A DNA stretch of 64,000 bases from Ilumatobacter fluminis (GTDB taxonomy: Bacteria > Actinomycetota > Acidimicrobiia > Acidimicrobiales > Ilumatobacteraceae): positions 868,001 through 932,000 of the forward strand of contig NZ_SOAU01000001.1 in the NCBI RefSeq assembly GCF_004364865.1, read 5' to 3'. The position numbers were made by a program, and so were the translations under genes. The first letter of the stretch is position 1. Each line of letters begins with the position of its first letter. The notes under the pieces were generated by a model. That model saw only the letters and a program-made list of their open reading frames with translations, was not told the origin of the DNA and ran no database searches. This document shows, in pieces, positions 9,133 through 30,071 of this stretch.

Positions 9133-9960
9133 TCACTCGGTGGCGGGCGAGCCGGGAGCCGGCTCCGAACCGATGGGCATGATGCCCTCGATCCGCTGAT
9201 CGAGGTCGGCGAGCAGACCGCCGGCTTCGAGATCGGCGAACGCGGGCGACTCCTCGGAGCACCAGGTCTCGTACTCCTCGGCGTATTCGCCGGCCGGGTC
9301 GGCCCCGCCGAGCGTGTAGCGCTCGTGGCAGACGACCGACAAGAGTTCGTACTCGGTCAGCTGGCCACCGAAGCCCGGCATCACGCCCTTGGCGCCGGTG
9401 ATGTGCACCCCGCCCTCACGGTCGGGGTTGCCGTAGATCTCGACGCCGGCGAGGTTGTACTGCTCGGTGCCGTAGTAGACGTAGCGGAGCTGGTCTTCGA
9501 TGTTCGGGAAGGTGTCGAGCACCTCGCCACCGACGAACGCGTAGCCGGCGCCCTCGTTGCCGCCCGGGTGGCACGACTGGCAGTTGGAGTAGACCTCGGC
9601 GCCGAGGCCGATCGGGCCCGTGGCCTCTTCGGGCGCCTCGGTGAGGGCACGGGCGTAGAGGAACGCCCACACCGGGAGCACGCCGAGCGCGGCCATTGCC
9701 CAGAACGGGACCCGGCGACGCTTCTTGTAGGCAGCGACGACGGGCGTGTCGGGCTTGGGCGGCGGGGGAGCGGCCGGAGCAGGAGCGGCGGCACGACCGG
9801 CCGGGGCGGCCGGCGCAGCAGCGGCCGGCGCAGCAGCCTTGGTCGGAGCCGGCTTGTTGTCGGTGGCGTCGCCACCGTCGCCGGCGTCGTCGCCGCCGAG
9901 ACCGAGCGCGGAGCGGCGGTCGCGGCTTCGCTTCAGCAGATGCTCGGGGATTTCGGTCAC
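9133..9960 (-). CDS. membrane-anchored monoheme cytochrome c
   Basis: A 275-residue protein with one heme-binding site CQSCH (127-131) and a plausible methionine ligand in GVMPGFGG. The N-terminus begins TEIPEHLLKRSRDRRSALG, then an Ala/Pro-rich hydrophilic stretch (about 35-75) and one transmembrane anchor at 84-104, which would place the heme domain outside. The GTG at 9960 is chosen because it gives an N-terminus nearly identical to that of the cytochrome b C-terminal subunit at 12298. GAGAGGA lies before it. It probably carries electrons from the bc complex to a terminal oxidase. It is divergent from the bc/nuo operon and leads a two-gene unit with the FAD oxidoreductase. Confidence 0.88.
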   Translation of the reverse strand: MTEIPEHLLKRSRDRRSALGLGGDDAGDGGDATDNKPAPTKAAAPAAAAPAAPAGRAAAPAPAAPPPPKPDTPVVAAYKKRRRVPFWAMAALGVLPVWAFLYARALTEAPEEATGPIGLGAEVYSNCQSCHPGGNEGAGYAFVGGEVLDTFPNIEDQLRYVYYGTEQYNLAGVEIYGNPDREGGVHITGAKGVMPGFGGQLTEYELLSVVCHERYTLGGADPAGEYAEEYETWCSEESPAFADLEAGGLLADLDQRIEGIMPIGSEPAPGSPATE

Positions 9961-10465: not shown

Positions 10466-10960
10466 ATGATCGCCATCAACTGGGCGAATCCGCTGGAGGG
10501 ATATGCCGTCCCCTTCGTCAACGTCGCGTTCATCACGTCGTTCGTCGCAGCGACGGTGCTCACGCTCATCGCGATTCCTTACGGCAAGCGCCGGCCCAAG
10601 GGCACCCCGTTCTCGTGGGGCGAGGCGATGCTCGGGTCCACCTACGCCTTCGGTGTCATGTTCCTCGCCTTCGGCATCGTGCCGCACCAGTTCGTCGACC
10701 ACGCCGACAAGGAACTCGGCTGGGACCGTGCCAACATCATCTACGGGCCGTTCGACATCCTGAAGCCCGACAGCCTCGGTGGATGGAACCCGATCACCCT
10801 CCAGTACGAGGCCGTCCGCGACATCGTGGTCGTCCTCATCCACGTGTACTTCTTCGGCCTCCTGATCTTCATCTGGAACTGGTGGCAGAAGCGTGGCGAC
10901 AACGTCACCAAGGAACTGCCGACCAGCTCGTACGGCCGACCGCTCGTCAAGAAGGCCTGA
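10466..10960 (+). CDS. uncharacterised three-helix membrane protein heading the bc operon
   Basis: 164 residues when started at the ATG that gives MIAINWANPLEGYAVPF. A GTG at 10358 in the same frame would add 36 low-complexity residues and is less likely. Three membrane helices are predicted at about 17-38, 54-74 and 117-139, with a conserved-looking loop GIVPHQFVDHADKELGWD and IIYGPFDILKP between helices 2 and 3. I do not recognise a named family. Its place as the first cistron before ferredoxin, cytochrome b, Rieske and cytochrome c genes suggests an accessory subunit of that complex. No cysteine or heme motif is present. The histidines H74 and H79 on the loop could be ligands, which is speculation. 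Confidence 0.75.
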   Translation: MIAINWANPLEGYAVPFVNVAFITSFVAATVLTLIAIPYGKRRPKGTPFSWGEAMLGSTYAFGVMFLAFGIVPHQFVDHADKELGWDRANIIYGPFDILKPDSLGGWNPITLQYEAVRDIVVVLIHVYFFGLLIFIWNWWQKRGDNVTKELPTSSYGRPLVKKA

Positions 10961-11058: not shown

Positions 11059-11472
11059 ATGGCAACCACCGACGCCAATCCGCCGATGATGCCGTACACC
11101 GACGAGTACACCCTCGTCGAGGTCGACGCCGACTACCTCGGCCGTGCGGTCAAGCCGAAGCAGTTCATCCACATCGATCAGTCCGAGTGCATCGCGTGCG
11201 AGGGCTGCGTCGACATCTGCCCGTGGAAGTGCATCCACATGGTGAACACGTCGGCGGTCGTCGAGGCCGACGGAACCGAACAGCCCGGCATCGATCCCTC
11301 CGACGCCTTCATGTTCGTCATCGACGACGACATCTGTACGCGGTGCGCCCTGTGCGTCGACCGCTGCCCGACCGGGGTCATCATCCTCGGTAAGGCCGGC
11401 CAGCCCACAGCTGCCGGCGACTCCCATGCCCGAACCAACAACCATGGCTACGGCTATGGCATGAGGCTCTGA
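11059..11472 (+). CDS. 2[4Fe-4S] ferredoxin of the bc/nuo operon
   Basis: 137 residues with two cysteine sets, C44/C47/C50/C54 in CIACEGCVDICP and C93/C96/C99/C103 in CTRCALCVDRCP, each expected to hold a 4Fe-4S cluster. The spacer between the sets is long (about 38 residues) and acidic, and the tail is Gly/His-rich. There is no signal peptide or membrane segment, so it is cytoplasmic. The strong ribosome site GAAGGGAGG is 7 bases before the ATG. It lies 19 bases before the cytochrome b gene. A ferredoxin inside a menaquinol:cytochrome c operon is unusual and suggests either a peripheral electron-entry subunit or a carrier shared with complex I. The partner is inferred from position only. Confidence 0.9.
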   Translation: MATTDANPPMMPYTDEYTLVEVDADYLGRAVKPKQFIHIDQSECIACEGCVDICPWKCIHMVNTSAVVEADGTEQPGIDPSDAFMFVIDDDICTRCALCVDRCPTGVIILGKAGQPTAAGDSHARTNNHGYGYGMRL

Positions 11473-11491: not shown

Positions 11492-12277
11492 ATGGCCAAG
11501 ATCATCGACGACACCCCGAAGCCGACCGCGAAGGAACGACTCCAATCGACGGTCGACAGTGTGCAGGGCGGACAGGTCTGGAGCAGCATCTTCCGACCCG
11601 GCTCCATCTTCCGCAAGGGCTACTCCGACAGCCCGCGTAACCGCAGTTACGTGGTCATGAACTCGGTGCTGTACCACTTGCACCCGGTCAAGGTGAAGCG
11701 CCACGCGGTCAAGGTGAGCTACACGCTCTGCCTCGGCGGCCTGAGCTTCTTCCTGTTCATCCTGCTGACCGTCACCGGCATCTTCCTGATGTTCTTCTAC
11801 CGGCCCGAATCGACCGCGGCCTGGAACGACATCTCGAACCTGCAGACCTCGGTCACGTTCGGTCTGCTCGTCAGAAACATGCACCGATGGGGCGCGCACC
11901 TGATGGTGATCTCGGTGTTCCTCCACATGGCCCGCGTGTTCTACCACGGCGCGTACAAGCCGCCCCGTGAGTTCAACTGGGTCATCGGCGTGATGCTGCT
12001 CAAGCTCACCCTGCTGCTGTCGTTCACCGGCTACCTGCTCCCGTGGGACCAGTTGGCGGTGTGGGCCGTCGCCGTGGGTACCAACATGATGGGGTACACA
12101 CCGGTCTTCGGCCGAGACGTCAGATTCGTGTTGCTCGGCGGCGCGGAAATCGGATCGGAAACCCTGCTCCGATGGTACGTGTTGCACGTGTTGTTCTTCC
12201 CGTTCGTCACCGTCATCTTCATGGCCATCCACTTCTGGAGAGTCCGAAAAGATGGCGGCATCTCGGGGCCGCTCTGA
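11492..12277 (+). CDS. petB: cytochrome b6-type subunit (N-terminal half of cytochrome b)
   Basis: 261 residues, covering only the four-helix heme-binding half of cytochrome b. The heme ligands are H131/H145 and H232/H247; the second pair is 15 residues apart, the b6/Firmicutes spacing rather than the 14 of bc1. C80 in YTLCLGG aligns with the cysteine that binds the extra c-type heme in b6f and Bacillus-type complexes. SFTGYLLPWDQLAVWAV is the Qo-side helix C motif and GGISGPL closes the subunit. It would carry electrons across the membrane during menaquinol oxidation. An N-terminal hydrophilic extension of about 50 residues is longer than in plant b6. The gene for the C-terminal half follows 20 bases downstream. 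Confidence 0.95.
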   Translation: MAKIIDDTPKPTAKERLQSTVDSVQGGQVWSSIFRPGSIFRKGYSDSPRNRSYVVMNSVLYHLHPVKVKRHAVKVSYTLCLGGLSFFLFILLTVTGIFLMFFYRPESTAAWNDISNLQTSVTFGLLVRNMHRWGAHLMVISVFLHMARVFYHGAYKPPREFNWVIGVMLLKLTLLLSFTGYLLPWDQLAVWAVAVGTNMMGYTPVFGRDVRFVLLGGAEIGSETLLRWYVLHVLFFPFVTVIFMAIHFWRVRKDGGISGPL

Positions 12278-12297
12278 TCCGGGAGGTGTGCTGATCC

Positions 12298-13086
12298 ATG
12301 ACTGAGATCCCAGAACACTTGCTCAAGCGGGCGCAGGCCGCCCGTGAAAAGGCTGCGACCAGCGAACCGGCGGCTGAGCCCGCCGCGTCCGAACCGGCCG
12401 CCGAGTCGCCCGCAGACTCGCGCATCCCGGCGCACCTGCTCGAGCGCAGCAAGGCCGCGAAGGCCAACAAGGGTGGCGGCGACGCCGGTGCAGCCGAGTC
12501 CGGCGGCGGCGTTGCCGTCCAGGACAAGGTCGCCTCGGTCGTCCAGGCCGGCCCCGCCGCCGGCGGTGTGCCCGTCGGTGCCGGCCCCGGTGGCCACACC
12601 CAGCGACTGCTGACCGTCGTCAAGTCCGGATCGATCCAGGACGTCAAGGCGCAGCCGGTCGACAAGGTCCACACCTGGCCGCACCTGCTCGCCGCGGAGT
12701 TCGTGGCGGCGCTCGCTTGTCTCACCTTCACCTTCTTGTTCTCGATCTGGGTCAACGCTCCGTTGCTCCAGGCGCAGAACCCCAACCAGACGCCGAACCC
12801 GTCGAAGGCGCCGTGGTACTTCCTGGGCCTCCAGGAACTGCTCACGATGTTCCACCCGATGATCGCCGGCGTGACCATCCCCGGTGTGGGCCTGATCGTG
12901 CTGATCTTCGCCCCGTACATCGATCGCAATCCGTCCAACAAGCCCGAAGATCGCAAGTTCGCGATCTCGCTGATGACCGTCCACCTCATGTTCTGGGCAG
13001 TCCTCACGATGATCGGTTCGTTCTTCCGTGGGCCTGGCTTCAACTTCGTCTTCCCGTGGGAAGACGGCCTGTTCTTCGAACTGTGA
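12298..13086 (+). CDS. petD: cytochrome b C-terminal subunit (subunit IV-type) with long N-terminal extension
   Basis: 262 residues. The C-terminal part (from about 125) has three membrane helices and the Qo segment NPSKAPWYFLGLQELL, so the usual PEWY is APWY (171-174) and the Glu is missing. Variants at this site occur in low-potential, menaquinol-type enzymes. The first ~125 residues are hydrophilic, Ala/Gly/Pro-rich and absent from ordinary subunit IV proteins. They contain two copies of a short motif, IPEHLLKR (4-11) and IPAHLLER (43-50). The first ten residues match the N-terminus of the divergently encoded cytochrome c at 9960. Function of the extension is unknown; docking or assembly is a guess. 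Confidence 0.92.
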   Translation: MTEIPEHLLKRAQAAREKAATSEPAAEPAASEPAAESPADSRIPAHLLERSKAAKANKGGGDAGAAESGGGVAVQDKVASVVQAGPAAGGVPVGAGPGGHTQRLLTVVKSGSIQDVKAQPVDKVHTWPHLLAAEFVAALACLTFTFLFSIWVNAPLLQAQNPNQTPNPSKAPWYFLGLQELLTMFHPMIAGVTIPGVGLIVLIFAPYIDRNPSNKPEDRKFAISLMTVHLMFWAVLTMIGSFFRGPGFNFVFPWEDGLFFEL

Positions 13087-13110: not shown

Positions 13111-13992
13111 ATGAGCACCACCGCAGCAATCATCATCGGCGTCGTCGCCGTCGTCGTCCTCGCCGCACTGGCGTTCGTCACCCTGGCTCGTCGCAGCGAC
13201 GTGCGCGGGGCCGGCGCGCTCAGTGCCGAGACGGTGAAACGCGATTCGACCGCCCGCAAGCAGCGCGCCGCCGTCGAGGGCGAGGCCGCCGCGGCCCGCA
13301 CCGGCGCCGACGCCGAGGCCGAAGGCGTCGTCGCCCGAACCGGCACCGCCGTCGTGCCGGCGTCCGACGACACCGGGCTGGCCCCGTTCACCCCGCCCGA
13401 CCCCGAAGAGATCGGCGTCAGCCGCCGCCAGTTCTTCAACCGTGCGACGATCGGCCTGATGGCCGCCAGCCTCGGCGCGTTCTCCGCAGCGGCGTTCGTC
13501 GCCTTCCTGTGGCCGACCAAGACCGGCGGCTTCGGCGGCAAGGTCAGCGTCGGCAAGCTGTCCGACGTCAAGACCGGCATCGCGTCCGGCGACGGCTTCT
13601 TCTACGCACCCGAGGCCCGCGCCTGGATCACCGAGTACCCGGTCGACGCGATCTCGAAGGCCGATGGCATCTATCAGGGCCCGCTGCTCGCGAACATGCA
13701 AGAGGGCATCATCATCTCGTACCAGAAGTGCCCGCACCTCGGTTGCCGCGTGCCCCAGTGCGTCTCGAGCCAGTGGTTCGAGTGCGGCTGCCACGGTTCG
13801 CAGTACAACCGTGTCGGCGAGAAGAAGGCCGGTCCCGCCCCGCGGGGCATGGACCACTTCGCCGCCGAGATCACCGGCGCCGGCGACGTCATCATCGACA
13901 CCGGCACCGTGTGGCAGGGTCCCCCAATCGGAACGAACACGACCGGCCAGGAGGCTGAGGGTCCGCACTGCGTCGGAGCCGCTGATCACTGA
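13111..13992 (+). CDS. petC: Rieske [2Fe-2S] iron-sulfur protein
   Basis: 293 residues. Box I CPHLGC (207-212) and box II CGCHGS (225-230) give ligands C207, H209, C225 and H228 and the disulfide pair C212-C227. It would accept the first electron from menaquinol on the outer face of the membrane and pass it to the cytochrome c. Two N-terminal hydrophobic segments (about 5-26 and 112-134) are separated by an Ala/Glu-rich stretch of some 80 residues. SRRQFFNRAT (104-113) before the second segment is a twin-arginine-like signal, as usual for Rieske proteins. The TGA shares its last base with the next gene's ATG. Confidence 0.96.
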   Translation: MSTTAAIIIGVVAVVVLAALAFVTLARRSDVRGAGALSAETVKRDSTARKQRAAVEGEAAAARTGADAEAEGVVARTGTAVVPASDDTGLAPFTPPDPEEIGVSRRQFFNRATIGLMAASLGAFSAAAFVAFLWPTKTGGFGGKVSVGKLSDVKTGIASGDGFFYAPEARAWITEYPVDAISKADGIYQGPLLANMQEGIIISYQKCPHLGCRVPQCVSSQWFECGCHGSQYNRVGEKKAGPAPRGMDHFAAEITGAGDVIIDTGTVWQGPPIGTNTTGQEAEGPHCVGAADH

Positions 13993-15053
13993 TGATTGCC
14001 CTGACCACCACATCGATCGCGTGGCTCATCTTCGCCGTTGTCCTCGGCGGCTGGGTCGTCTACGCGTTCCTCAACATCCGGCAGTCGCGCGACGAACTCG
14101 GTTCCGAGATCGAGCTCGCGGCCAACCGCAAGCCGTACTACGACGACGAGACGCTCGAAGGCTCGCGCCTGACGCGCGTCCTCGGCATGGGCGTCATCTT
14201 GCTGGTCGTGATCTCGATCGCGCTGCCGCTCTACTGGATCCTCGAACCCTCACGGCAGGCCGGAGCGCAGGCCGAGAAGGAAGAGAAGTTCATCGAATGG
14301 GGCGCCGACCTGTTCGCACCCACCGCTGACGGCGGCTTCAACTGCGCAGGCTGCCACGGTGGCATGGACGGAGCCGGCGGTGTCGCCGAGTACAACCTGA
14401 CCGACCCCACCACCGGTGAGGTCCGAGTGGTCAACTGGAAGGCGCCGGCGGTCAACTCGGTGCTGTACCGCTTCAGCGAGGAAGAAGTGAAGTTCATCCT
14501 CGTCTACGGTCGCCCGTTCAGCCCGATGTCGCCGTGGGGCGTCGACGGCGGCGGCCCGATGAACGATCAGCAGATCGACACGCTCATCGCCTACATGCGC
14601 AGCATCCAGATCGAGCGCGAAGACTGTGGTGAGGGCGAGGAAGACGCCGGCACATGCCCGTCCGGTCATCTCCCGGTCGAGATCCAGGACAACATCGAAC
14701 AGCTCGCCATGGCCTCCGTCGAAGACGGCACGTACGGCTCGTACGGCGAAGCGCTCTACAACCTCGAGTTCAGCAGCGGTGCCTACAGCTGCGCCCGGTG
14801 CCACACCCCCGGCTGGAGCTGGGACGAGCCCGGCGTCACCGGTCAGGGCGGCTTCGGCTGGAACCTCACCGGCGGCCGCGCCAACACCCAGTTCCCGGTC
14901 GAAGCCGACATGATCGACTTCATCGCGAACGGTTCGGAGAACGGCGCCCGCTACGGCGTGCAGGGCCAGGGCAGCGGACGCATGCCCGGCTTCGGTGCCA
15001 TGCTGACCGATGAACAGATCCAGGCCATCGTCGAGTACGTACGGAGTTTGTGA
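13992..15053 (+). CDS. membrane-anchored diheme cytochrome c subunit
   Basis: 353 residues with two covalent heme sites, CAGCH (118-122) and CARCH (267-271), in two class I cytochrome c-like domains. Candidate methionine ligands lie in RPFSPMSPWG and GRMPGFGAM. Two hydrophobic segments at about 7-27 and 62-84 anchor it. It would take electrons from the Rieske centre. A diheme cytochrome partnered with split cytochrome b and Rieske resembles the arrangement in heliobacterial and other Gram-positive-type complexes and in actinobacterial QcrC. An acidic cysteine-containing insertion (EDCGEGEEDAGTC) links the domains. It overlaps both neighbours by one base. Confidence 0.94.
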   Translation: MIALTTTSIAWLIFAVVLGGWVVYAFLNIRQSRDELGSEIELAANRKPYYDDETLEGSRLTRVLGMGVILLVVISIALPLYWILEPSRQAGAQAEKEEKFIEWGADLFAPTADGGFNCAGCHGGMDGAGGVAEYNLTDPTTGEVRVVNWKAPAVNSVLYRFSEEEVKFILVYGRPFSPMSPWGVDGGGPMNDQQIDTLIAYMRSIQIEREDCGEGEEDAGTCPSGHLPVEIQDNIEQLAMASVEDGTYGSYGEALYNLEFSSGAYSCARCHTPGWSWDEPGVTGQGGFGWNLTGGRANTQFPVEADMIDFIANGSENGARYGVQGQGSGRMPGFGAMLTDEQIQAIVEYVRSL

Positions 15054-15889
15054 TGTTGGCGACGTTGTTGGCCATCGGCTGGGAGCCCGAGCTCCGCGGC
15101 CTGCTCACCGTGATGATCGGCGCCGCCGTCTGGATGGGCTCGATCTACCTGATCCTCGGCACCAACCTCGGTGCCCGACTCGGCTTCCTCGTGTCGCTGG
15201 CCGGCCTGTTCGGCTGGATGGCGCTGATGGGCGCCGTGTGGTGGATCTACGGCATCGGTCTCACCGGTGACGTTCCCTCGTGGGAAGGCGTCACCGGCAG
15301 CACCGTGATCCAGGAAGTCGACCTGCTCTACCAGGCGGGCGTGCTCGAGGAGCCGATCGAGGTCACCGTCGAGACGCCGTCGGCCGAAGCGGCCGAGGCC
15401 GTCGAGGCACAGATGCTGTCGCAGGGCTGGACCGAAGTCGACGCGTCCGCACCCGAGTTCGGTCAGGCGCAGGCGTCGGCCGAGATCTTCCTCGAAGAAG
15501 AAGACGCCCTCGAGGCGGGCAGCTACCAGGTCACCGCCGTCTACGAGGTCGACCCGCCCGCCGAGTCGGCGTACCCGAAGTTCGGCGAGAACGGTGAGTT
15601 CGACCAGCTCGCCTTCTTCCACAAGCCGTACTACACCCTCGTCGAGGTCGCCCCGTACGCCGAGGTGCTCACCGAGCCGGGCCGTGCGCCGATCGCCCCG
15701 GAGATCGACGAAGAGCGTCAGCGTCAGTACGTGTACATGATCCGCGACCTCGGTTCGCTCCGCGAGCCGGCCGGCTACATCACGATCGGTTCCACCATCG
15801 TGTTCCTGATGCTGTGCTGGCTGCTGCACCGCCGCGACCGCTTCGTCGCCCAGAACCTCGCCCGGAAGAGCGCGGACGCCACCGCCTGA
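15053..15889 (+). CDS. uncharacterised membrane protein closing the bc block
   Basis: 278 residues from the ATG that overlaps the preceding TGA. Two membrane helices at about 17-36 and 43-65 are followed by a soluble, acidic domain of some 170 residues. A last helix lies near 241-258, with an Arg-rich LLHRRDRF end. No cofactor motif or named family is recognised. The domain contains PPAESAYPKFGENGEFDQLAFFHKPYY-like sequence, in which several aromatic residues stand out. Its stop lies four bases before nuoA. Coupling on both sides suggests an accessory subunit bridging or stabilising the bc complex, but this is inference from position. Confidence 0.75.
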   Translation: MLATLLAIGWEPELRGLLTVMIGAAVWMGSIYLILGTNLGARLGFLVSLAGLFGWMALMGAVWWIYGIGLTGDVPSWEGVTGSTVIQEVDLLYQAGVLEEPIEVTVETPSAEAAEAVEAQMLSQGWTEVDASAPEFGQAQASAEIFLEEEDALEAGSYQVTAVYEVDPPAESAYPKFGENGEFDQLAFFHKPYYTLVEVAPYAEVLTEPGRAPIAPEIDEERQRQYVYMIRDLGSLREPAGYITIGSTIVFLMLCWLLHRRDRFVAQNLARKSADATA

Positions 15890-15893
15890 CACC

Positions 15894-16403
15894 ATGGGTC
15901 AGTACCTTCCGCTCGTCGCCTTGATGGTGCTGGCCATCGCCTTCGGTGGTCTCAGCTTCCTGGCGTCGCGCCTGCTCGCTCCGCGCCGTCCGTCGATGGC
16001 CAAGGAAGCACCGTACGAGTGCGGCATCGTGCCATCGCGCGAGCCGCCCGATCGCTTCCCCGTGAGCTTCTACATCGTCGCGATGTTGTTCATCATGTTC
16101 GACATCGAGATCATCTTCTTGTACCCGTACGCGATCGAGGCCGGCGCGCTCGGCCAGTTCGGTTTCTGGGCGATCGCGCTGTTCTCGGTGATCTTCTTCC
16201 TGACGTTCGTGTACGAGGTCGCACGCGGTGGGCTCGAATGGGGCCCGATCCATCGCTACCGAGATCTCCGAGCCGACGCCGCGATGGTGTCGGCCGAGCG
16301 CACCACCACCACGACCATCCGTCGGGTCGGCCTCGAAGGCCGTACCGACCGTGCCACCGCTGGGGGAGCGGACGACACGCCATCGGAACACGAAGCTGCC
16401 TAG
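15894..16403 (+). CDS. nuoA: NADH-quinone oxidoreductase subunit A (complex I copy 1)
   Basis: 169-residue membrane subunit with three helices and the conserved APYECGIVP and FYIVAMLFIMFDIEIIFLYPYA segments; the acidic FDIE stretch is characteristic. The family is normally about 120-140 residues. This copy has an extra hydrophilic C-terminal tail of about 45 residues with a run of Thr and Arg that has no counterpart in the second NuoA of this window. It starts four bases after the preceding membrane-protein gene, so it belongs to the bc transcription unit. Confidence 0.95.
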   Translation: MGQYLPLVALMVLAIAFGGLSFLASRLLAPRRPSMAKEAPYECGIVPSREPPDRFPVSFYIVAMLFIMFDIEIIFLYPYAIEAGALGQFGFWAIALFSVIFFLTFVYEVARGGLEWGPIHRYRDLRADAAMVSAERTTTTTIRRVGLEGRTDRATAGGADDTPSEHEAA

Positions 16404-16415
16404 GAGGACACCCAC

Positions 16416-16997
16416 ATGGGGCTCGTCGACGACGTACTCGCTGATGGCATCGGCGGGCTGGGACACAACGCGATCACGGGCAGGCTCGAAGATCTGATCA
16501 ACTGGGCCCGGTCGCGTTCGTCGTGGCCGGCCTCGTTCGGTCTCGCCTGCTGCGCGATCGAGATGATGGGCACCGGCGGTGCCCACTACGACATCTCCCG
16601 CTTCGGCATGGAGGTCTTCCGTGCGTCGCCGCGCCAGGCCGACATCATGATCGTCGCCGGGCGCGTCAGCCAGAAGATGGCCCCGGTGCTCCGCCAGGTC
16701 TACGACCAGATGATGGAACCCAAGTGGGTCATCTCGATGGGCGTCTGCGCCAGCTCCGGCGGCATGTTCAACAACTACGCGGTCGTCCAGGGTGTCGATC
16801 AGATCGTGCCGGTCGACGTGTACGCCCCGGGGTGTCCTCCGACGCCGGAGACGCTGATCCACGCGATCGAGACCCTGCACCAGAAGATCGAGGACGGCGA
16901 GATCCTCAAGCGTCGTGCCGAGACCGGTGCCGGCGCGAACCTGCACATCGAAGAGATCGCGCCCACCACCACGCCGGTCCTGCTCGGGACCAAGTGA
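16416..16997 (+). CDS. nuoB: NADH-quinone oxidoreductase subunit B (complex I copy 1)
   Basis: 193 residues. Ligands of the terminal cluster N2 are visible as the adjacent pair C45-C46 in [10 protein letters not shown]111 in SMGVCASSG and C140 in APGCPP. The subunit sits at the junction of the peripheral arm and the quinone cavity. AGGAGG at about 16403-16408 precedes the ATG. The C-terminal 25 residues are a variable tail. Confidence 0.97.
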
Positions 16998-17004
16998 GCA
17001 ACCC

Positions 17005-17523
17005 ATGAGCGACATCGACAACGACACCGACGCGCCCGAGATCTCAGCCGAGATCCCGACGGTGCACGACTGCATCGCCGGCGAGAGCTGTGGCCAGACC
17101 GTCGTGTTCCCGACGCGGGAGCAGTACGTCGACCTGGTCAAGAAGCTGGCCGACGACGGCTACTCGATGATCATCGATCTCTGCGGCGTCGACTACCTCG
17201 AGTACATGGATCGTCCGTTGCCCGACGACATCGTCGCCGAGCGCTTCGAGGTGGTCGTCAACCTCCTCGACATCACGCACCGTCGCCGCATCCGACTGCG
17301 GGTGCAGGTGCCCGAAGCCGAGCCGACGATCCCGACGCTGTTCGACGTCCACCCGGGCGCCGAGGCCTACGAGCGCGAGACGTACGACATGTTCGGCGTC
17401 GTGTTCACCGAGCACCCCGACATGACCCGCATCCTGATGCCCGAAGACTGGGTCGGCCACCCCCTCCGCAAGGACTACGCCGTCGGCAAGATCCCCGTCC
17501 AGTTCAAGGGAGCACACTCGTGA
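17005..17523 (+). CDS. nuoC: NADH-quinone oxidoreductase subunit C (complex I copy 1)
   Basis: 172-residue 30-kDa-type subunit of the Q module. The signature ERETYDMFGVVFTEHPDMTRILMPEDWVGHPLRKDY occupies the C-terminal third. The ATG at 17005 gives the acidic start MSDIDNDTDAPE; longer readings upstream are out-of-frame nuoB. The stop overlaps the GTG of nuoD. Confidence 0.95.
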   Translation: MSDIDNDTDAPEISAEIPTVHDCIAGESCGQTVVFPTREQYVDLVKKLADDGYSMIIDLCGVDYLEYMDRPLPDDIVAERFEVVVNLLDITHRRRIRLRVQVPEAEPTIPTLFDVHPGAEAYERETYDMFGVVFTEHPDMTRILMPEDWVGHPLRKDYAVGKIPVQFKGAHS

Positions 17524-18893
17524 GCACGACGGAACAACCGGCCGTGACGGCCCAGCAGCCGTGGTCGCATGCGAATGTCGGTCAGACGACGGCCGGCGAG
17601 CAGGAGATGAAGCCGCGGTCGGAGACGACCGCCGAGGAGCTGATGCGCGAGATCGGCTCGGTCCTGCGCATGAGCGAGGCCGAGGCCGCCCAGCTCGGCG
17701 ACCTGCCCGACGACCCCGACGACGATCAGACGATGATCATCAACATGGGGCCGCAGCACCCGTCGACGCACGGCGTGCTCCGACTCATGCTCGAGCTGCA
17801 GGGCGAGACCGTCCTGCGGTGCAAGCCGATCATCGGCTACCTGCACACCGGCATGGAGAAGACCGGTGAGCAGCTCACGTTCATGCAGGGCGGCACGAAC
17901 GTCACCCGCATGGACTATCTGTCGCCGTTCAACAACGAGCTCGCGTTCTCGATGGCGACCGAGAAGCTGCTCGGCATCGACGGCGACATCCCCGAACGCG
18001 CCGTCTGGATGCGGATGCTGCTCTCCGAGCTCAACCGCATGTCGTCGCACCTGCTGTTCCTCGCCACCAACGGCATGGACCTCGGCGCCGTTTCGATGAT
18101 GATCTACGGCTGGCGCGAACGAGAAGAGGTCCTGCGCTTCTTCCAGAAGGTCACCGGTCTGCGGATGAACCACAACTTCATCCGACCGGGCGGCCTCGCC
18201 GCCGACCTGCCGCCCGGCTGGCGCGACGACGTCCTCCGTCTGCTCGACCTCATCCCCGAGCGGCTCGAGGAGTACGACATCCTCATGACGGGCCAGCCGA
18301 TCTGGCGCGAGCGTCTGCAGGGCGTCGGCGTGATCACGCCCGACGAGGCGATCGCCCTCGGCGCGAACGGACCGATCCTTCGCTCGACCGGCGTCCCCTG
18401 GGACCTCCGACGCGACATGCCGTACCTGAAGTACGACGAGGTCGACTTCGACGTCATCGTCGGCACCTACGGTGACGCGTACGACCGGTACGCGATCCGC
18501 CTCAACGAGGTGCGCGAGTCGATGAAGATCGTCCGCCAGATCCTCGACCGGATGCCCCAGGGCGATTACCGCATCCAGGACAAGAAGGTCACCCCGCCGC
18601 CGCGTGCCCGCATCGACGAGTCGATGGAGGCGCTGATCCACCACTTCAAGATCTTCACCGAGGGCTTCAAGGTGCCCGAGGGCGAGGTGTACGTCGGCAT
18701 CGAGTCGCCGCGCGGCGAGATCGGTTGCTACATCGCCTCCGACGGTTCACCCACCCCGTACCGCATGCACATGCGCGCCCCGTCGTTCGCCAACATCCAG
18801 TGTCTGCCGCACATGCTGCGTGGCGGACTGGTGGCCGACGCGGTCGCGATCATCTCGAGCACCGACCCCGTCCTCGGCGACGTCGACAGGTAG
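17520..18893 (+). CDS. nuoD: NADH-quinone oxidoreductase subunit D (complex I copy 1)
   Basis: 457-residue 49-kDa subunit that forms the quinone site with NuoB. The NMGPQHPSTHGVLRLML segment, with the quinone-site His, lies near residues 76-92, and GDVDR ends the protein. The GTG start overlaps nuoC and gives a ~70-residue acidic extension before the conserved core; an ATG at residue 30 is an alternative. NuoD-type subunits are the substrate of MidA/NDUFAF7 methyltransferases, one of which is encoded at 58250. Confidence 0.96.
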   Translation: MSTTEQPAVTAQQPWSHANVGQTTAGEQEMKPRSETTAEELMREIGSVLRMSEAEAAQLGDLPDDPDDDQTMIINMGPQHPSTHGVLRLMLELQGETVLRCKPIIGYLHTGMEKTGEQLTFMQGGTNVTRMDYLSPFNNELAFSMATEKLLGIDGDIPERAVWMRMLLSELNRMSSHLLFLATNGMDLGAVSMMIYGWREREEVLRFFQKVTGLRMNHNFIRPGGLAADLPPGWRDDVLRLLDLIPERLEEYDILMTGQPIWRERLQGVGVITPDEAIALGANGPILRSTGVPWDLRRDMPYLKYDEVDFDVIVGTYGDAYDRYAIRLNEVRESMKIVRQILDRMPQGDYRIQDKKVTPPPRARIDESMEALIHHFKIFTEGFKVPEGEVYVGIESPRGEIGCYIASDGSPTPYRMHMRAPSFANIQCLPHMLRGGLVADAVAIISSTDPVLGDVDR

Positions 18894-18898
18894 GAACG

Positions 18899-19519
18899 AT
18901 GAGTCGTTTGAATGACCAGAACGTGGCGCTGGCGAAGGAGATCGTCGCCCGCTACCCGAAGAAGAAGTCGGCGCTGATCCCGCTCGTGCACCTGAGCCAG
19001 GAACAGAACGGATACGTCACCGAGGAGGCGATGAAGCACGTCGCCGAACTCGTCGACGTGACCCCCGCCGAGGTGTACGGCACCGCTTCGTTCTACGAGA
19101 TGTTCCGGTTCGAGCCGACCGGCAAGTACCTCATCAACATCTGCGGCACCATGAGCTGTGCGCTGATGGGCGGCCACGACCTCATGCACCACGCCGAGCA
19201 CACGCTCGGCGTGAAGGCCGGTTCGACCACCGACGACGGTCTCATCACCTTGCAGCACGCCGAGTGCCAGGCCGCCTGCACCGAGGCGCCGACGCTCCAG
19301 GTCAACTACCGCCACCGGTTCCGGGTCACGCCCGCGGAGTTCGACGAACTGGTCGACGATCTGCGCGCGGGCAAGCTCGACGACGAGATCCCGCCGCACG
19401 GCACGCTCGGCCGCAACCGCCAGCACATCCCCGCCGACAAGGCCGTCGGCGCGGTGCCGCCCGACGAGGTCGACGGCGCACCCGCCTGGGTCACGATAAA
19501 GGAAGAAGGCGCTTCATGA
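18899..19519 (+). CDS. nuoE: NADH-quinone oxidoreductase subunit E (complex I copy 1)
   Basis: 206-residue thioredoxin-like subunit of the NADH module. The [2Fe-2S] ligands are C82 and C87 (CGTMSC) and C123 and C127 (CQAAC). It has an extra C-terminal stretch of about 40 residues beyond the fold. The start is in a different frame from the end of nuoD, 5 bases behind it. The ATG of nuoF overlaps its stop as ATGA. Confidence 0.95.
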   Translation: MSRLNDQNVALAKEIVARYPKKKSALIPLVHLSQEQNGYVTEEAMKHVAELVDVTPAEVYGTASFYEMFRFEPTGKYLINICGTMSCALMGGHDLMHHAEHTLGVKAGSTTDDGLITLQHAECQAACTEAPTLQVNYRHRFRVTPAEFDELVDDLRAGKLDDEIPPHGTLGRNRQHIPADKAVGAVPPDEVDGAPAWVTIKEEGAS

Positions 19520-20937
19520 GCGCGCACGGTTCGTACCCCTGGGCCGCCGGCTACTACGACGACGGCGATCGTCCGCAGATCGTCACCTCGCGCTTCAAGT
19601 ACGAGGACTCGCACACCATCGACCGCTACCACGCCACCGGCGGGTACGAGGGGCTGAAGAAGGCCCTGTCGATGCCGCCCGAGGAGGTGCACGACGAGGT
19701 TCGCAAGTCGACCCTCCTCGGCCGTGGCGGCGCCGGCTTCCCCGCCGGCGTCAAATGGGGCTTCACGCCCCAGGGCGTGTGGCCGCGCTACCTCGTCGTC
19801 AACGGCGACGAGTCGGAACCGGGCACCTACAAGGACCGCCTCCTGATGGAGCTCGATCCGCACCAGCTGATCGAGGGCTGCCTGATCGCCTGCTACGCCG
19901 CCGGACTCAGCCGCTGCTTCCTCTACATCCGTGGTGAGATGGCGCTCGCGCACGAGCGGGTCGCCAAGGCGCTCGACGATGCCTACGCGCACGGCTACAT
20001 CGGCACGAACATCCTCGGCACCGACTTCTCCGTCGACATCGTCCTGCACTGGGGTGCGGGTGCCTACGTCGTCGGCGAGGAGACCGCACTCATCGAGTCG
20101 CTCGAAGGCGAGCGCGGCATGCCTCGCCTCAAGCCGCCGTACTTCCCGGCGGCGATCGGCCTGTACGGCAAGCCGACGATCGTCAACAACGTCGAGACGC
20201 TCTCGAACCTGCCGTTCATCGCACTCAACGGCTCGGCCGCCTACACGGCGATCGGCACCGAGACGTCGCCCGGCACGCGCATGATCGCCGTGTCCGGCCA
20301 CGTCAAGCGACCCGGTGTGTTCGAGATCGTGAACGGCTCCACCACCTTCCGCGACCTGCTCTACGGCGACGAGTTCAGCCAGGGCATGCGCGACGGCCGC
20401 GAGCTCAAGGCGTTCGTGCCCGGCGGCGGTTCCGCGCCGTGGTTCCTGCCCGACCAGCTCGACATCTCGTTCGAAGGTCGCGAGGCGGGCTCGGCCGGTT
20501 CGATGCTCGGCTCGGGCGCCGTGATGGTGATGGACGACACGACCGACATCCCGGCTGCGGCGCTCACACTCGTCAAGTTCTACGCCCACGAGTCGTGCGG
20601 CAAGTGCGTCCCCTGTCGTGAGGGCGGCACCTGGCTGTACCGCATCGTCGAGCGCATCGTCGCCGGCGACGGCACCGACGCCGACCTCGAGACCATCCGC
20701 GAGGTCGGGCAGTCGATCTGCCCCGGTGAGATGCCGCATGCGTCGAGCGAACGGCTCGGCCTCGAGGCCGTGCCGTTCCCGTACAAGATGACGACGATCT
20801 GCTTCGTCGGACCATCGGCGTACGTGCCGATCCACTCGGCGATGACCCTGTTCCCCGAAGAGTTCGAAGCGATCGTGACGAAACGCGAAGTGCGCACCAC
20901 GATCCCGGTCACGGCCGTCCCCGTGGGAGGTGAGTGA
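19516..20937 (+). CDS. nuoF: NADH-quinone oxidoreductase subunit F, NADH/FMN-binding (complex I copy 1)
   Basis: 473 residues. The NADH-binding loop GRGGAGFPAGVKW begins at 69 and the FMN region includes NGDESEPGTYKDR. Cluster N3 ligands are C361, C364 and C367 in SCGKCVPCREGG, and C429 in TICFVGPSAYVP. Between the third and fourth ligands there is an insertion of about 22 residues relative to E. coli NuoF, which contains another cysteine, C402 in SICPGEMP. This is the entry point of NADH electrons, present only in the first of the two complex I operons here. Confidence 0.96.
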   Translation: MSAHGSYPWAAGYYDDGDRPQIVTSRFKYEDSHTIDRYHATGGYEGLKKALSMPPEEVHDEVRKSTLLGRGGAGFPAGVKWGFTPQGVWPRYLVVNGDESEPGTYKDRLLMELDPHQLIEGCLIACYAAGLSRCFLYIRGEMALAHERVAKALDDAYAHGYIGTNILGTDFSVDIVLHWGAGAYVVGEETALIESLEGERGMPRLKPPYFPAAIGLYGKPTIVNNVETLSNLPFIALNGSAAYTAIGTETSPGTRMIAVSGHVKRPGVFEIVNGSTTFRDLLYGDEFSQGMRDGRELKAFVPGGGSAPWFLPDQLDISFEGREAGSAGSMLGSGAVMVMDDTTDIPAAALTLVKFYAHESCGKCVPCREGGTWLYRIVERIVAGDGTDADLETIREVGQSICPGEMPHASSERLGLEAVPFPYKMTTICFVGPSAYVPIHSAMTLFPEEFEAIVTKREVRTTIPVTAVPVGGE

Positions 20938-20938
20938 G

Positions 20939-23485
20939 ATGAGCGACGCAGACGAACAGCAGCCCGACACGCAAGAACCCGACACCGGGGCTGCCGACGC
21001 CGATGCCGCCGAGCGCGGTGAAGCCCATCCCGAGACCCAGGCCACCGACGCCGAAGCCGACGTCCCCGCCGACGACGATCAGCCCGCCGAAGCATCCGCC
21101 ACCGCGGACGACGCCGACGCGATCGCCGACGAGACGCAGGGCGGCGACGGCGCCGACGACGAGGCACCGGCCGAACCCGACCCGAACCTCGTCCAGGTCA
21201 CCATCAACGGCCGCGCCTTCGACGCCCACCAGGGCGAACTCGTCATCAACGCAGCCGAGCGTGCCGGCCACTACGTGCCCCGGTTCTGCTACCACCCGCG
21301 CATGTCGTCGGTGGGCATGTGCCGCCAGTGCATGGTCGAGATCGACACGGGTCGCGGCCCGATGCTGCAGCCCTCCTGCATGGTGAGCGTCGCCCCCGAC
21401 ATGAAGGTCGAGACCGAGAGCGACACGGCCAAGCGTGCCCAAGAAGGCATCCTCGAACTCCTGCTCGCCAACCACCCGCTCGACTGTCCGGTCTGCGACA
21501 AGGGCGGCGAATGCCCCCTCCAGGACCAGGCGTTCAGCCACGGTCCCGGCGAGAGCCGCTACGTGGAGCAGAAGCGCCACTACGAGAAGCCGATCCCGAT
21601 CAGCGATCACATCCTGCTCGACCGTGAGCGCTGCATCCTGTGCGACCGCTGCACCCGCTTCGCGGACGAGGTGGCCGGCGACAAGCTGATCCACTTCATC
21701 GACCGTGGCAACTACACCCAGGTCGCCACGTTCCCCGACGAGCCGTTCGCGTCGTACTTCTCCGGCAACGTCGCCCAGATCTGCCCGGTGGGCGCCCTCA
21801 CCGCCAAGCCGTACCGCTTCAAGGCCCGCCCCTGGGATCTCGAACAGGCCGACTCCACGTGCACGACCTGCTCGGTCGGTTGCCGGATCTCGGTGCATTC
21901 GAGCCGCGACCAGCTGCTCCGCTACCAGGGCGTCGACACCGGGCTCGACACCGACTCGGTCAACCTCGGCTGGATGTGCGACCGCGGTCGGTTCAACTTC
22001 GAAGCGGTCGAGTCCGAACTCCGCCTCGCCGACCCGCAGGTCCGCGGTGAAGCCGGCCTCGCCAAGTCGTCGTGGGCGTCGGCGATGTCGATCATCGAGC
22101 AGCTCCTGCGCCACGCGTCGAGCGTTGCGCTGCTCGGCGGTGCCCGCTCCACCAACGAGGGAGCATTCGCCTGGGCCAAGCTCGCCGACGCGATGGGGAT
22201 CTCGTTCCGCGACGCCCAGCTCGGCGACGGCCTCCCGGCGGGCGTGCTCGACCTGCCGCGCGCCACGATCGACGACGCCGTCAACGCGAAGACCGTCATC
22301 CTGCTCGGCCCCGACCTCAAAGAAGAGCTCCCGGTGCTGTACCTGCGCCTCCGCGATGCTGCGGTCAGCGGTACCACCAAGCTCGTCGAGTTCTCGACGC
22401 AGGAGACCGGGCTCACCCGCTACGCCTGGAAGAGCGTCCGCCATGCCCCGGGCATGGGAGCGACCGAGATCAGCCGTGCCCTCGCCGACGCCGCGATGGC
22501 CGACCAGCTCGCGTCGGGTGAGGTCGTGATCGTCGCCGGTCGTGGCAACCTCGCCGCAAGCGAGGCGACCGCCGTCGCCGCGATCCACGCAGCCCGCGCC
22601 GCCGCCCCCGATGCGAAGGTGCTCCCGGCGCTGCGACGCGGGAACGTGGTCGGTGCGCTGCAGCTCGGCCTCGCGCCGAGCGATGCCGACCACGACGCGC
22701 TCGCCACCCTGCGAGCCTGCGCCGACGGCAAGGTCGACGTGCTCGTCCTGCTCGGCGCCGACCCGCTCAACGACTGCCCCGACGCCGATCTCGCCCGCCG
22801 TGGTCTGGCAGGCGCCCGCCGGGTCATCTCGATCGACACGCACCCGTCGGAGTCGACGCAGCAGGCCGACATCGTCCTGCCGGCTGCGGCGTTCGCCGAA
22901 CAGTCGGGCACCACGACCAACCTCGAGGGTCGCGTCACCGACGTCGCCCAGAAGATCACCGCCAACGGAACCGCCCGTCCCGACTGGATGATCGCCTCGG
23001 AACTGGCTCTCCGCATGGGCCACGACCTCGGGTTCGAGACGATCGAGCAGATCACTGCCGCGATCGCCGCACTGCCGGGCTTCGCCCCGGCCTTCGACGG
23101 CGGGTTCGCCACCGGCTCGCTGCCGGCGCTGCCCGACGCCTCGACGAACGACCAGGTGCCGAGCGGCTACGACTTCCGACTCGTCGTGAGTCGCAAGCTG
23201 TACGACCGGGCGGTCAACACGGTCATGGCACCGTCGATCGCCAAGCTCAACATCGGCGCCGGTGCCCGCGTGCACTCCCTCGACCTGCCCCGGGTAGGCG
23301 TCGACGACGGCACCGACGTGAAGTTGATCAGTGCGACCGGTTCGGTCGTCCTGCCGCTGATCGCCGACGACTCGGTCCAGCGCGGCACGATCTGGGCGCC
23401 GTTCAACATGGCCGGCGCCGACGTCACCGATCTGGTCGACGCCACCGCGCCCGTCACCGACGTCCGCATCGAGAGGTTGACCTGA
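20939..23485 (+). CDS. nuoG: NADH-quinone oxidoreductase subunit G (complex I copy 1)
   Basis: 848 residues. The N-terminal [2Fe-2S] domain has CYHPRMSSVGMCRQC and a fourth cysteine in PSCMV (about 117-148). The His-ligated 4Fe-4S region follows, then CPVCDKGGECPLQ, CILCDRCTRF and CTTCSVGCRI (N7-type), and then a molybdopterin-oxidoreductase-like domain. The ordinary start of the fold (VQVTINGRAFDAHQGE) is preceded by about 80 very acidic Asp/Glu/Ala residues, which is unusual. It begins one base after the nuoF stop. Confidence 0.96.
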   Translation: MSDADEQQPDTQEPDTGAADADAAERGEAHPETQATDAEADVPADDDQPAEASATADDADAIADETQGGDGADDEAPAEPDPNLVQVTINGRAFDAHQGELVINAAERAGHYVPRFCYHPRMSSVGMCRQCMVEIDTGRGPMLQPSCMVSVAPDMKVETESDTAKRAQEGILELLLANHPLDCPVCDKGGECPLQDQAFSHGPGESRYVEQKRHYEKPIPISDHILLDRERCILCDRCTRFADEVAGDKLIHFIDRGNYTQVATFPDEPFASYFSGNVAQICPVGALTAKPYRFKARPWDLEQADSTCTTCSVGCRISVHSSRDQLLRYQGVDTGLDTDSVNLGWMCDRGRFNFEAVESELRLADPQVRGEAGLAKSSWASAMSIIEQLLRHASSVALLGGARSTNEGAFAWAKLADAMGISFRDAQLGDGLPAGVLDLPRATIDDAVNAKTVILLGPDLKEELPVLYLRLRDAAVSGTTKLVEFSTQETGLTRYAWKSVRHAPGMGATEISRALADAAMADQLASGEVVIVAGRGNLAASEATAVAAIHAARAAAPDAKVLPALRRGNVVGALQLGLAPSDADHDALATLRACADGKVDVLVLLGADPLNDCPDADLARRGLAGARRVISIDTHPSESTQQADIVLPAAAFAEQSGTTTNLEGRVTDVAQKITANGTARPDWMIASELALRMGHDLGFETIEQITAAIAALPGFAPAFDGGFATGSLPALPDASTNDQVPSGYDFRLVVSRKLYDRAVNTVMAPSIAKLNIGAGARVHSLDLPRVGVDDGTDVKLISATGSVVLPLIADDSVQRGTIWAPFNMAGADVTDLVDATAPVTDVRIERLT

Positions 23486-24747
23486 TGCCTGCATCACTGC
23501 TCGCCGCCGATCCGCTCCTCGACACCGACGACTGGTGGTGGCAGGTCCTCGCCATCGTCGCCGGCAAGGTCCTGGCGATCTTCGTCATCGGTCTCGTCGG
23601 CACCATGTTCATGGTGTGGTTCGAGCGCAAGATCGTCTCGGGCATGCAGAACCGTGTCGGCCCCAACAAGGCCGGCCCGTTCGGTCTGCTCCAGACGCTC
23701 GCCGACGGCACCAAGCTGTTCTTCAAAGAAGACCTGCTGCCCGACAAGGCCGACAAGTGGGTGTTCCGCCTCTCGCCGTTCCTGGCGTTCGTGCCGGCGT
23801 TCCTGCTGTGGGCGGTCATCCCGCTCGGCGGCGACTTCACGAACGGCAACGACGGCACCGTCACGATGTTCGGCTACGAGACGCGTGTCCAGCTCGTCGA
23901 CGTGCCGATCGGCATCCTGCTCGTGCTGGCGCTCAGCTCCATCGGCGTCTACGGCATCATGCTGGCCGGCTGGGCGTCGGGTTCGAAGTACCCGCTGCTC
24001 GGCTCGGTTCGTGCCACGGCCCAGATGATCTCGTACGAAGCCGCGCTCGGGCTGAGCCTCGCCGCCGTGCTGTTGATGTCGGGCACCTTGTCGACGGCCG
24101 GCATCGTGCAGGGCCAGGACAGCCTGCTCGACTGGAACGTCGTCGCCACCGGCTTCATCCCCTTCGTCGTCTTCCTGATCGCGATGACGGCCGAACTCAA
24201 CCGTCCCCCCTTCGACCTCGTCGAGGCCGAGCAGGAACTCGTCGGTGGCTTCAACACCGAGTACTCCTCGATCCGCTTCGCCCTGTTCTTCCTCGCCGAG
24301 TTCATGAACGTCATCACGATGAGCGCCATCATGGTGACCCTGTTCTTCGGTGGCCCGCAGCCGCTCAAGCTCGGCGATCTGCAGCTCGGCGGCATCATCG
24401 AGGACGGCAACATTTTCGCCTGGGCTGGTCCGCTGTCGGGCACCATCTGGGTCGTCCTCAAGACGCTCGCATTCCTCTACGCCTACGTCTGGTTCCGTGC
24501 GACCCTGCCCCGATTGCGGTACGACCAGCTGATGGACTTCGGCTGGAAGCTGCTGATCCCGATCGCGCTCGGCTGGTTCCTCGTGCTCGCGGCGCTCGAG
24601 ATGGTCCGCGATCGCTACGACGGCTGGGAGCCGTTGGCGATCACCGTGGTGATCAGCCTCGTCGTGCTCGGCATCGCCTACGGACTCTTCAGCCTCGCGA
24701 TGGGCGTGGCGAAACGCAATCGAGAGCAGGAAGGGCCGGCGTACTGA
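23485..24747 (+). CDS. nuoH: NADH-quinone oxidoreductase subunit H (complex I copy 1)
   Basis: 420-residue membrane subunit linking the quinone cavity to the proton pumps. [29 protein letters not shown] is the conserved first loop. [26 protein letters not shown] is the loop lining the quinone tunnel. About eight helices are visible. Its ATG shares a base with the nuoG stop (TGATG). Confidence 0.97.
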
Positions 24748-24818
24748 TGTCTGCGCTCGATACCGCTCAGATCGGCGTACCGATGTCTGCGCTCGAAACC
24801 GCACAAGGAGGGATCTGA
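24747..24818 (+). CDS. putative 23-residue coupled micro-ORF with internal duplication
   Basis: An ATG sharing one base with the nuoH TGA opens 23 codons whose TGA shares one base with the nuoI ATG. The frame is exactly two 36-base units, 24747-24782 and 24783-24818. They encode [12 protein letters not shown] and [11 protein letters not shown], and 21 of the first 24 bases are identical. The nuoI ribosome site AAGGAGGG is inside the second unit. No family is known. It may be a translational coupler rather than a functional peptide, but the coupling on both sides is exact. Confidence 0.4.
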
Positions 24819-25477
24819 TGGGATACCTCGACGGATTCGCCGTCACCATCCGCCAGCACCGCCTCTTCGGCGGCAAGCAGGTCACGACCGAGTACTCGGG
24901 CGGCCGCACCGCGAAGAAGCGCGGCAAGGCGACCGACCCCGACGTCGACCACGACGAGAAGATCGACAAGCCGGAGCGTCTGCACGGCCGTCACGTCCTC
25001 AACAAGTACGAGGACGGGATGGAGAAGTGCATCGGCTGCGAGCTGTGCGCGGGCGTGTGCCCGGCCAAGTGCATCTATGTGCGCGGCGCCGACAACGATC
25101 CGCTCAACCCGACCTCGCCCGGCGAGCGGTTCGGGTTCGTCTACGAGATCAACTACCTCCGGTGTATCCACTGCGACCTGTGTGTCGAGGCGTGCCCGAC
25201 CGAGGCGATCACCGAGACGAAGCTGTTCGAGTTCAGCTTCACCAATCGTCAGGACGCGATCTACACCAAGAACGAGCTGCTCGTCGACGACGAGGGCAAG
25301 CCGCGCGCTCAGCCGTGGGAAGACTGGCGCGACGGCGAGGACGAGCTGACGTCCGGCTGGATGCGTGCCACGTCGCCGTCGGGTGACGCGACGTTCCGCG
25401 GCGTCGTCGGCTGGAGCAACGAGCTCGGCCACGGCGAGCGTGCCCCCGAACCGCCCCAAGAGGAGTCCGACCGATGA
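24818..25477 (+). CDS. nuoI: NADH-quinone oxidoreductase subunit I (complex I copy 1)
   Basis: 219-residue TYKY-type ferredoxin subunit. The two 4Fe-4S motifs are C71/C74/C77/C81 ([12 protein letters not shown]) and C116/C119/C122/C126 ([12 protein letters not shown]). It conveys electrons from the NuoG clusters to N2. It is longer than the copy 2 protein (163 residues), with an extra C-terminal acidic tail. AAGGAGGG is 5 bases before the ATG. Confidence 0.96.
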
Positions 25478-26434: not shown

Positions 26435-26437
26435 GCC

Positions 26438-28483: not shown

Positions 28484-30071
<1,588 letters not shown>

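Follow-up and report, generated by a model that had tools for sequence, protein, structure and literature searches.

The locus examined here raises two questions: what type of Rieske/cytochrome b complex does Ilumatobacter fluminis encode directly before its complex I genes, and why is a ferredoxin gene placed beside the gene for its cytochrome b? The window, that is, the whole stretch of DNA analysed, comprised 64,000 nucleotides of this genome (assembly GCF_004364865.1, contig NZ_SOAU01000001.1, positions 868,001 to 932,000 of the forward strand), and all coordinates below refer to it unless another locus is named.

Gene Content of the Locus

The gene run comprised a small, all-helical, probably membrane protein of unknown family (10466..10960, +), a 2x[4Fe-4S] ferredoxin proposed to be a cytoplasmic electron-transfer subunit (11059..11472, +; Fer4_21, 3.4e-11, and cysteine motifs), a b6-type cytochrome b of 261 amino acids (11492..12277, +; Pfam PF00033 Cytochrome_B, 1.4e-44), a subunit IV-type protein of 262 amino acids with a long N-terminal extension (12298..13086, +; PF00032 Cytochrom_B_C, 8.1e-8), a Rieske protein (13111..13992, +; Pfam Rieske, 6.5e-7), a c-type cytochrome with two CxxCH sites and a hydrophobic N-terminal part (13992..15053, +; Cytochrome_CBB3, 5.2e-14, in two stretches), and a protein without a family match (15050..15889, +), the gene of which overlaps the cytochrome gene by 4 bases. 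The spacing was tight, with 19 bases between ferredoxin and b6 and 20 bases between b6 and subunit IV. The complex I genes (15894..30069, +) started directly afterwards, at a boundary within the same apparent operon; nuoA and B were assigned via Pfam, and nuoD, E, F, G, H, I, L and M via NCBIfam.

The Rieske sequence contained a Tat-like segment (SRRQFF) and the cluster motif CPHLGC...CGCHGSQY, in which the serine/tyrosine pair of CxCHGSxY is retained. No signal or membrane helix was evident in the ferredoxin, as judged from its sequence by eye, so the membrane should separate it from the Rieske protein. The Rieske cluster motif was identified in 58 of 80 translated frames of titled loci, with tyrosine in 53 and phenylalanine in 5; the 22 frames outside the pattern include loci cut at their ends.

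The helical protein at 10466..10960 had no Pfam or NCBIfam family match, and its AlphaFold2 model (pLDDT 86.3) had no PDB match at E <= 0.001. It was present in 30/30 of the best class (Acidimicrobiia) loci and 18/20 divergent class loci, and its C-terminal end is conserved (YGRPLVKK-like). Pfam and NCBIfam searches likewise gave no match for the protein at 15050..15889, a match to which was present in 17/20 divergent class loci. On the opposite strand, a divergent c-type cytochrome (CQSCH; 9133..9960, −), with an IPEHLL motif at its presumed N-terminus, had no match in Pfam or NCBIfam. A geranylgeranyl-reductase-family gene (7821-9110, −; E 1.5e-41) resembles menaquinone reductase MenJ, with 142.7 bits against a cut-off of 700; such a gene was also found near the complex in 12/20 divergent class loci.

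A Split Cytochrome b with a Cysteine at the Heme c(i) Position

The cytochrome b is divided, as in b6f-type complexes, into a four-helix b6 protein and a subunit IV, which bears out the initial annotation of a b6-like, split gene. A frameshift or assembly error as the origin of the split was ruled out because the relatives carry the identical split. A phmmer alignment with the b6 proteins of solved b6f complexes (6rqf_I, 1q90_B and 1vf5_A) paired query residues 75-261 with b6 residues 30-215 and set VSYTLCLGG over VNIFYCLGG, ungapped at the cysteine. Cys80 (codon 11729-11731, +) corresponds to b6 Cys35, so it occupies the heme c(i) position that had been claimed for it. The heme ligands were spaced as in b6, with H131/H145 14 residues apart and H232/H247 15 residues apart; helix D aligned without a gap, in agreement with the spacing first reported for the second heme pair.

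Cys80 was present in 86/89 b6 sequences of the first set (genome repeats included), the remaining three being type B paralogues, which are described below. In the wider set, it was present in 117/157 sequences, and the position was occupied by Gly, Tyr, Phe or Arg in the other 40. This set was obtained by dropping 12 of 169 loci as second copies, of which 10 were true repeats and two came from separate genomes (L062 of G030 and L064 of G026); in both of these, the ferredoxin gene adjoins b6. The 157-locus set keeps some genomes twice (e.g., L009/L157, L019/L167 and L032/L133).

The Qo Motif of Subunit IV

The subunit IV family profile matched 1q90_D at 2.4e-7. The sequence APWY (residues 171-174, codons 12808-12819) aligned with PEWY, with proline replacing the glutamate, as the initial annotation had stated. 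Its further suggestion, that the change was special or a mark of low potential, was not supported: APWY was found in 150/151 subunit IV sequences of the wider set, in a family that spans at least eight phyla by record titles, and the Rieske serine/tyrosine pair is kept. A degenerate Qo site was rejected on the same count. Judged by its near-invariance over several phyla, APWY appears to be a hallmark of the wider family and no sign of lost function.

Occurrence in the Genome, Class and Phylum

A search with PF13631 gave a single match in the whole 4.78-Mb, one-contig genome. As the same search matches in Corynebacterium glutamicum, a canonical QcrB should have shown, and its presence elsewhere in the genome was rejected. 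The locus is the only Rieske/cytochrome b complex found in the genome, which also contained two POR_N matches (2-oxoacid:ferredoxin oxidoreductase type) and three COX1-family matches.

A b6 match at E <= 0.001 was present in 235/247 class genomes. By the best b6 E-value per genome, 199 were below 1e-99 (called type A), 10 lay around 1e-69 to 1e-78, 26 at 1e-17 to 1e-27, and 12 had no match. Matches of type A strength (64-84% identical) were found in many phylum families beyond the class, and 187/396 phylum genomes, class included, had a b6 match at E <= 1e-40. Among the titled rows of the b6 tree, an uncultured Ilumatobacter (L144) was the nearest. A plasmid search with b6 returned 99 records, every one below 60% identity.

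The split b6, Cys80 and APWY are thus the normal state for the class and no single-genome oddity. Most class members have this complex as their regular respiratory complex III, built on the photosynthetic b6 plan. The early view of a different complex type for an actinobacterium stands against Corynebacterium-type QcrB but not within the class, where this type is the rule (199/247). Respiratory schemes that assume a mycobacterial QcrCAB would be wrong for most class genomes. The sampled genomes of families f2, f4, f5, f13, f16, f22 and f23, which belong to the same order, had neither a type A b6 nor the specific ferredoxin, and their cytochrome b matches were all distant (1e-19 to 1e-27); it looks as though a QcrB-like complex had replaced this one entirely.

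The Predicted Heme c(i) Pocket

Position 80 of b6 and position 134 of subunit IV (codon 12697-12699, +) covaried over the 151 loci with both proteins. Cys80 was accompanied by Glu at position 134 in 110/111 loci and by another residue in one. Among the sister complexes with an altered position 80, Gly80 occurred with Glu retained in 16/16 loci, and Tyr, Phe or Arg80 with Glu in 1/24, His in 17 and other residues in 6. Glu134 aligned with PetD Phe40 (1q90_D numbering), which faces heme c(i), only to within one residue (HMMER placed it one before). The covariation supports a heme c(i) pocket: Cys80 and Glu134 look like parts of one pocket, the likeliest content of which is a glutamate-capped c(i). 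In the sister complexes with an altered position 80, the inner heme may be bound non-covalently or through histidine, or may be absent. According to the anammox paper (PMC12954380), a glutamate as second ligand gives a low-potential inner c-type heme.

His62 of b6 (codon 11675-11677, +) was conserved in 156/156 family loci, with the outlier L089 set aside as misaligned there. In the anammox paper, a further heme b is modelled at the interface of the dimer, on His43 or His62 of the proteins studied there (PMC12954380); that His62 of the present b6 is the equivalent of these residues is a guess.

A Ferredoxin Gene beside b6

The ferredoxin is a protein of 137 amino acids with two CxxCxxCxxxC motifs. 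The initial annotation passed over its gene, the most informative neighbour of b6. Its gene directly preceded b6 in 30/30 of the best class loci (window included), in 20/20 divergent class loci (the copy in L050 being in two pieces), and in 16/16 type A loci from 12 phylum families outside the class (L070-L085). The b6f-like phylum outlier L089 had no ferredoxin gene.

In a genome-wide search of the 199 type A genomes, the ferredoxin was found at E < 1e-35 in 190, as a weaker partial match in 2, and in 7 not at all; among the 48 genomes without a type A b6, it was found in 3 and was partial in 2. These counts do not represent independent events, because the genomes are related. Eleven of the 14 exceptions were examined, the other three (G140, G131 and G076) having a partial ferredoxin. 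A contig edge fell in or before the ferredoxin gene in five genomes (G084, G096, G111, G191 and G139), and the ferredoxin lay beside a cut or frameshifted b6 in three more (G203, G213 and G215). In G110, G036 and G018, the type A b6 was truly without an adjoining ferredoxin gene; the genes of both flanks were present in G110 and G036, and a contig ended on one side in G018. Two genomes (G107 and G209; L185 and L186) contained a second ferredoxin copy, with the score of an operon copy, away from any b6.

The nearly constant presence of the ferredoxin gene beside b6 suggests an exchange of electrons between ferredoxin and the complex, in one direction or the other. Literature searches on Qo motif variants (APWY) and on complexes of Acidimicrobiia, Actinobacteria or Chloroflexi with ferredoxin or GltD returned nothing on the locus among the matches listed, which is weak evidence that a ferredoxin-linked Rieske/cytochrome b complex has no prior description.

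Sister Complexes with a GltD-Like Reductase

The same class and phylum also contain type B b6 proteins (L086-L088; about 50% identical). In their loci, the gene directly upstream of b6 encoded a GltD-like oxidoreductase to which two [4Fe-4S] motifs are fused. The protein in L087 (2654-4738 of that locus, 694 amino acids) had as its best NCBIfam match the NAD(P)-binding protein PRK12771 (1.5e-141, 472.8 bits, below the cut-off of 516).

A GTDB scan with the type B query gave at least 591 candidate stretches, the best 80 of which, ranked by likeness to that query, were analysed, so the proportions should not be read as frequencies. Of these 80, 47 encoded a GltD-like protein and ferredoxin within 4.5 kb of b6, 23 a ferredoxin only, and 10 neither. 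By their titles, the first group comprised Chloroflexota, Acidobacteriota, Verrucomicrobiota, Gemmatimonadota, Ignavibacteriota, Zixibacteria, Geobacteraceae (Citrifermentans bremense) and Actinomycetota; a metagenome bin can be mistitled, as with the Chloroflexota-like L113, titled Steroidobacteraceae. In several loci of this first group (e.g., L120, L127, L138, L141 and L143), a Rieske gene lay between the reductase-ferredoxin gene and b6. All 23 ferredoxin-only loci of the best 80 had actinobacterial titles, and 5/5 Ktedonobacteria loci among the same 80 had neither module. For L137 and L142, "neither" refers to the 4.5 kb, a GltD-like gene being present farther downstream; several contigs, L140 and L154 among them, are short.

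In a maximum-likelihood b6 tree of 135/157 sequences (22 class loci left out, root arbitrary), the 73 ferredoxin-only rows, together with G110, which has no ferredoxin gene there, formed one group with 99/99 support. The two motifs were 49 residues apart in 94/95 ferredoxin-only proteins and variably spaced in the fused ones, which also have an additional RCLxC stretch that is absent from the ferredoxin-only proteins. The ferredoxin-only proteins may represent a trimmed module or an independent recruit. Cys80 was missing in 36/50 GltD-like sister complexes (L086-L088 and the 47 of the best 80), so there is no strict coupling between the reductase or ferredoxin and heme c(i).

Comparison with Known Systems

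The complex shares with cytochrome b6f (PetB/PetD) the split b6 and subunit IV, the c(i) cysteine, the 14/15 heme spacing and the Rieske protein. It differs from b6f in having APWY where b6f, like bc1, has PEWY, in a b6 N-terminus that is 45 residues longer and contains His62, and in the 2x[4Fe-4S] ferredoxin gene that precedes b6. No cytochrome f was found in the operon; the subunit starting at 13992 matched Cytochrome_CBB3/Cytochrom_C only, a two-CxxCH cytochrome taking its place.

The anammox complexes Kuste4569-4574 and Kustd1480-1485, as described in PMC12954380, likewise combine a b6-like cytochrome b, a subunit IV-like protein, a Rieske protein and a multiheme cytochrome c with an iron-sulfur module proposed on the cytoplasmic side. 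Here, too, an iron-sulfur protein gene stands together with b6, subunit IV and Rieske genes. By that description, the anammox complexes are set apart by a complete NAD(P) oxidoreductase and by cytochromes with six or eight hemes, whereas the present locus has a ferredoxin and a two-heme cytochrome; no NAD(P)-binding flavoprotein gene was found beside b6 in the window, only the 137-amino-acid ferredoxin. The GltD-like/b6 loci share the [4Fe-4S] module before b6 and subunit IV, APWY and His62, but their ferredoxin is fused behind the reductase and Cys80 is mostly replaced. By analogy, the complex would work like the b6f/bc complexes, and its relatives would operate as has been proposed in print for the anammox complexes, which have an NAD(P) port.

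The b6 protein passed the NF040969 model of ExtP from the selenite/tellurite ext operon (306.9 against a cut-off of 290), but subunit IV failed ExtQ (48.5 against 150), and the genes here seem to belong to a joint complex III-complex I operon. Actinobacterial QcrCAB presumably shares the function of a menaquinol-cytochrome c reductase, but its QcrB is a single long chain, and the window b6 reached 114 bits with NF050120 against a cut-off of 500. Together with the ExtP score, this upholds the original distinction from actinobacterial QcrB. The ferredoxin scored 42 bits with the NuoI model (cut-off 113) and was rejected as NuoI; the nuo operon has its own, better NuoI-like gene at 24818-25477 (105.5/145.8 bits, just under the cut-offs of 113.05/163). 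Judged by these profile scores, the complex is neither QcrCAB nor a full ExtPQ member, and the ferredoxin is not NuoI.

Proposed Electron Path and Alternatives

With about even confidence, we propose that the locus encodes a menaquinol-cytochrome c reductase on the split b6 plan, with a cytoplasmic ferredoxin electron port. The sequence shows the gene content, residue positions, conservation, linkage and covariation; physical association, a covalent heme, the quinone type, the electron path and its direction are inferred. Known families are the source for the Q cycle with menaquinol, with which the MenJ-like gene at 7821-9110 would fit, and for the steps from Rieske protein to two-heme cytochrome to oxidase and from the b hemes to c(i). 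Menaquinol would be oxidised at the outer Qo site (APWY). The first electron would pass through the exported Rieske protein and the two-heme cytochrome c to the oxidases, and the second would cross both b hemes and arrive, beside the inner quinone site, at a third heme, c(i), which would be bound covalently to Cys80 and capped by Glu134. The upstream-encoded ferredoxin would dock on the cytoplasmic face and exchange electrons with c(i)/bN, in the place that is taken in many of the sister complexes by a GltD-like reductase with a fused ferredoxin of this kind. Low-potential soluble donors, such as 2-oxoacid:ferredoxin oxidoreductases, would deliver electrons by way of the ferredoxin and the inner hemes to the quinone pool. 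We judge inward flow, from ferredoxin to menaquinone, likelier than outward flow, because genes of the 2-oxoacid:ferredoxin oxidoreductase type are present and menaquinol could reduce ferredoxin only against a steep energetic slope; this is an argument and not data. As G110, G036 and G018 are without an adjoining ferredoxin gene and the Ktedonobacteria without either module, the port would be dispensable.

More tentatively, and well short of even confidence, we suggest that in many deep-branching Actinomycetota complex III doubles as a ferredoxin-menaquinone oxidoreductase, with electrons entering at c(i), perhaps by way of an interface heme held by His62, and joining the Q cycle. If true, this would parallel, in respiration, the ferredoxin route of b6f cyclic electron flow, which has long been disputed. 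Photosynthesis research has long asked whether ferredoxin can pass electrons to the inner heme of a b6-type complex. Here, outside photosynthesis, a ferredoxin gene is tied to a b6-type cytochrome, and in sister complexes a GltD-like reductase stands in its stead, which opens the question to a test by purification.

Linkage and co-absence are no proof that the ferredoxin is a subunit. The complex could be a plain b6-type menaquinol-cytochrome c reductase that shares its operon with a soluble carrier for other enzymes, as might be expected from the three genomes with a type A b6 and no adjoining ferredoxin gene, the two with an extra copy away from b6, and an apparent operon that continues into complex I. 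We consider this unlikely given the near-constant place of the ferredoxin gene before b6, the type A loci outside the class included, its absence together with b6, and the fused reductase and ferredoxin that other phyla encode in that neighbourhood.

Use of the proposed port in the outward direction, with quinol bifurcation at Qo sending a low-potential electron through the inner hemes to reduce the ferredoxin, seems to us improbable: the energetic slope given above opposes it, and the oxidoreductase genes are a likely source of reduced ferredoxin. In its favour are the NAD(P)H proposal and modelled path for the anammox complexes, and the serine/tyrosine pair kept in the window Rieske, which is linked to high potential in that paper (PMC12954380). 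That Cys80 is heme-free and the ferredoxin serves only in assembly, by bringing iron-sulfur clusters to the Rieske protein, or in structure is very improbable, for all that position 80 varies in a quarter of the wider set (40/157), given the Cys80/Glu134 covariation and the exact placement of Cys80 at b6 Cys35. We retain the ferredoxin-linked reductase as the preferred reading.

A Shared IPEHLL Motif

The motif [IV]P-x-HLL-x-R-[SAT] opens subunit IV (12298-12363, +), recurs about 40 residues on (12415-12480, +), and also opens the neighbouring c-type cytochrome (9889-9960, −). It was not found in the loci outside the class (L070-L089) and recurred in Acidimicrobiia loci. In a search of the whole genome, the three locus sites had E-values of 4.8e-12 to 1.7e-10; a fourth, weaker site (E 3.5e-6) lay at the C-terminus of a 310-codon frame (G000:C1:3497071), and five further matches had E-values above 0.8. 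The motif may represent a class-specific docking or assembly peptide.
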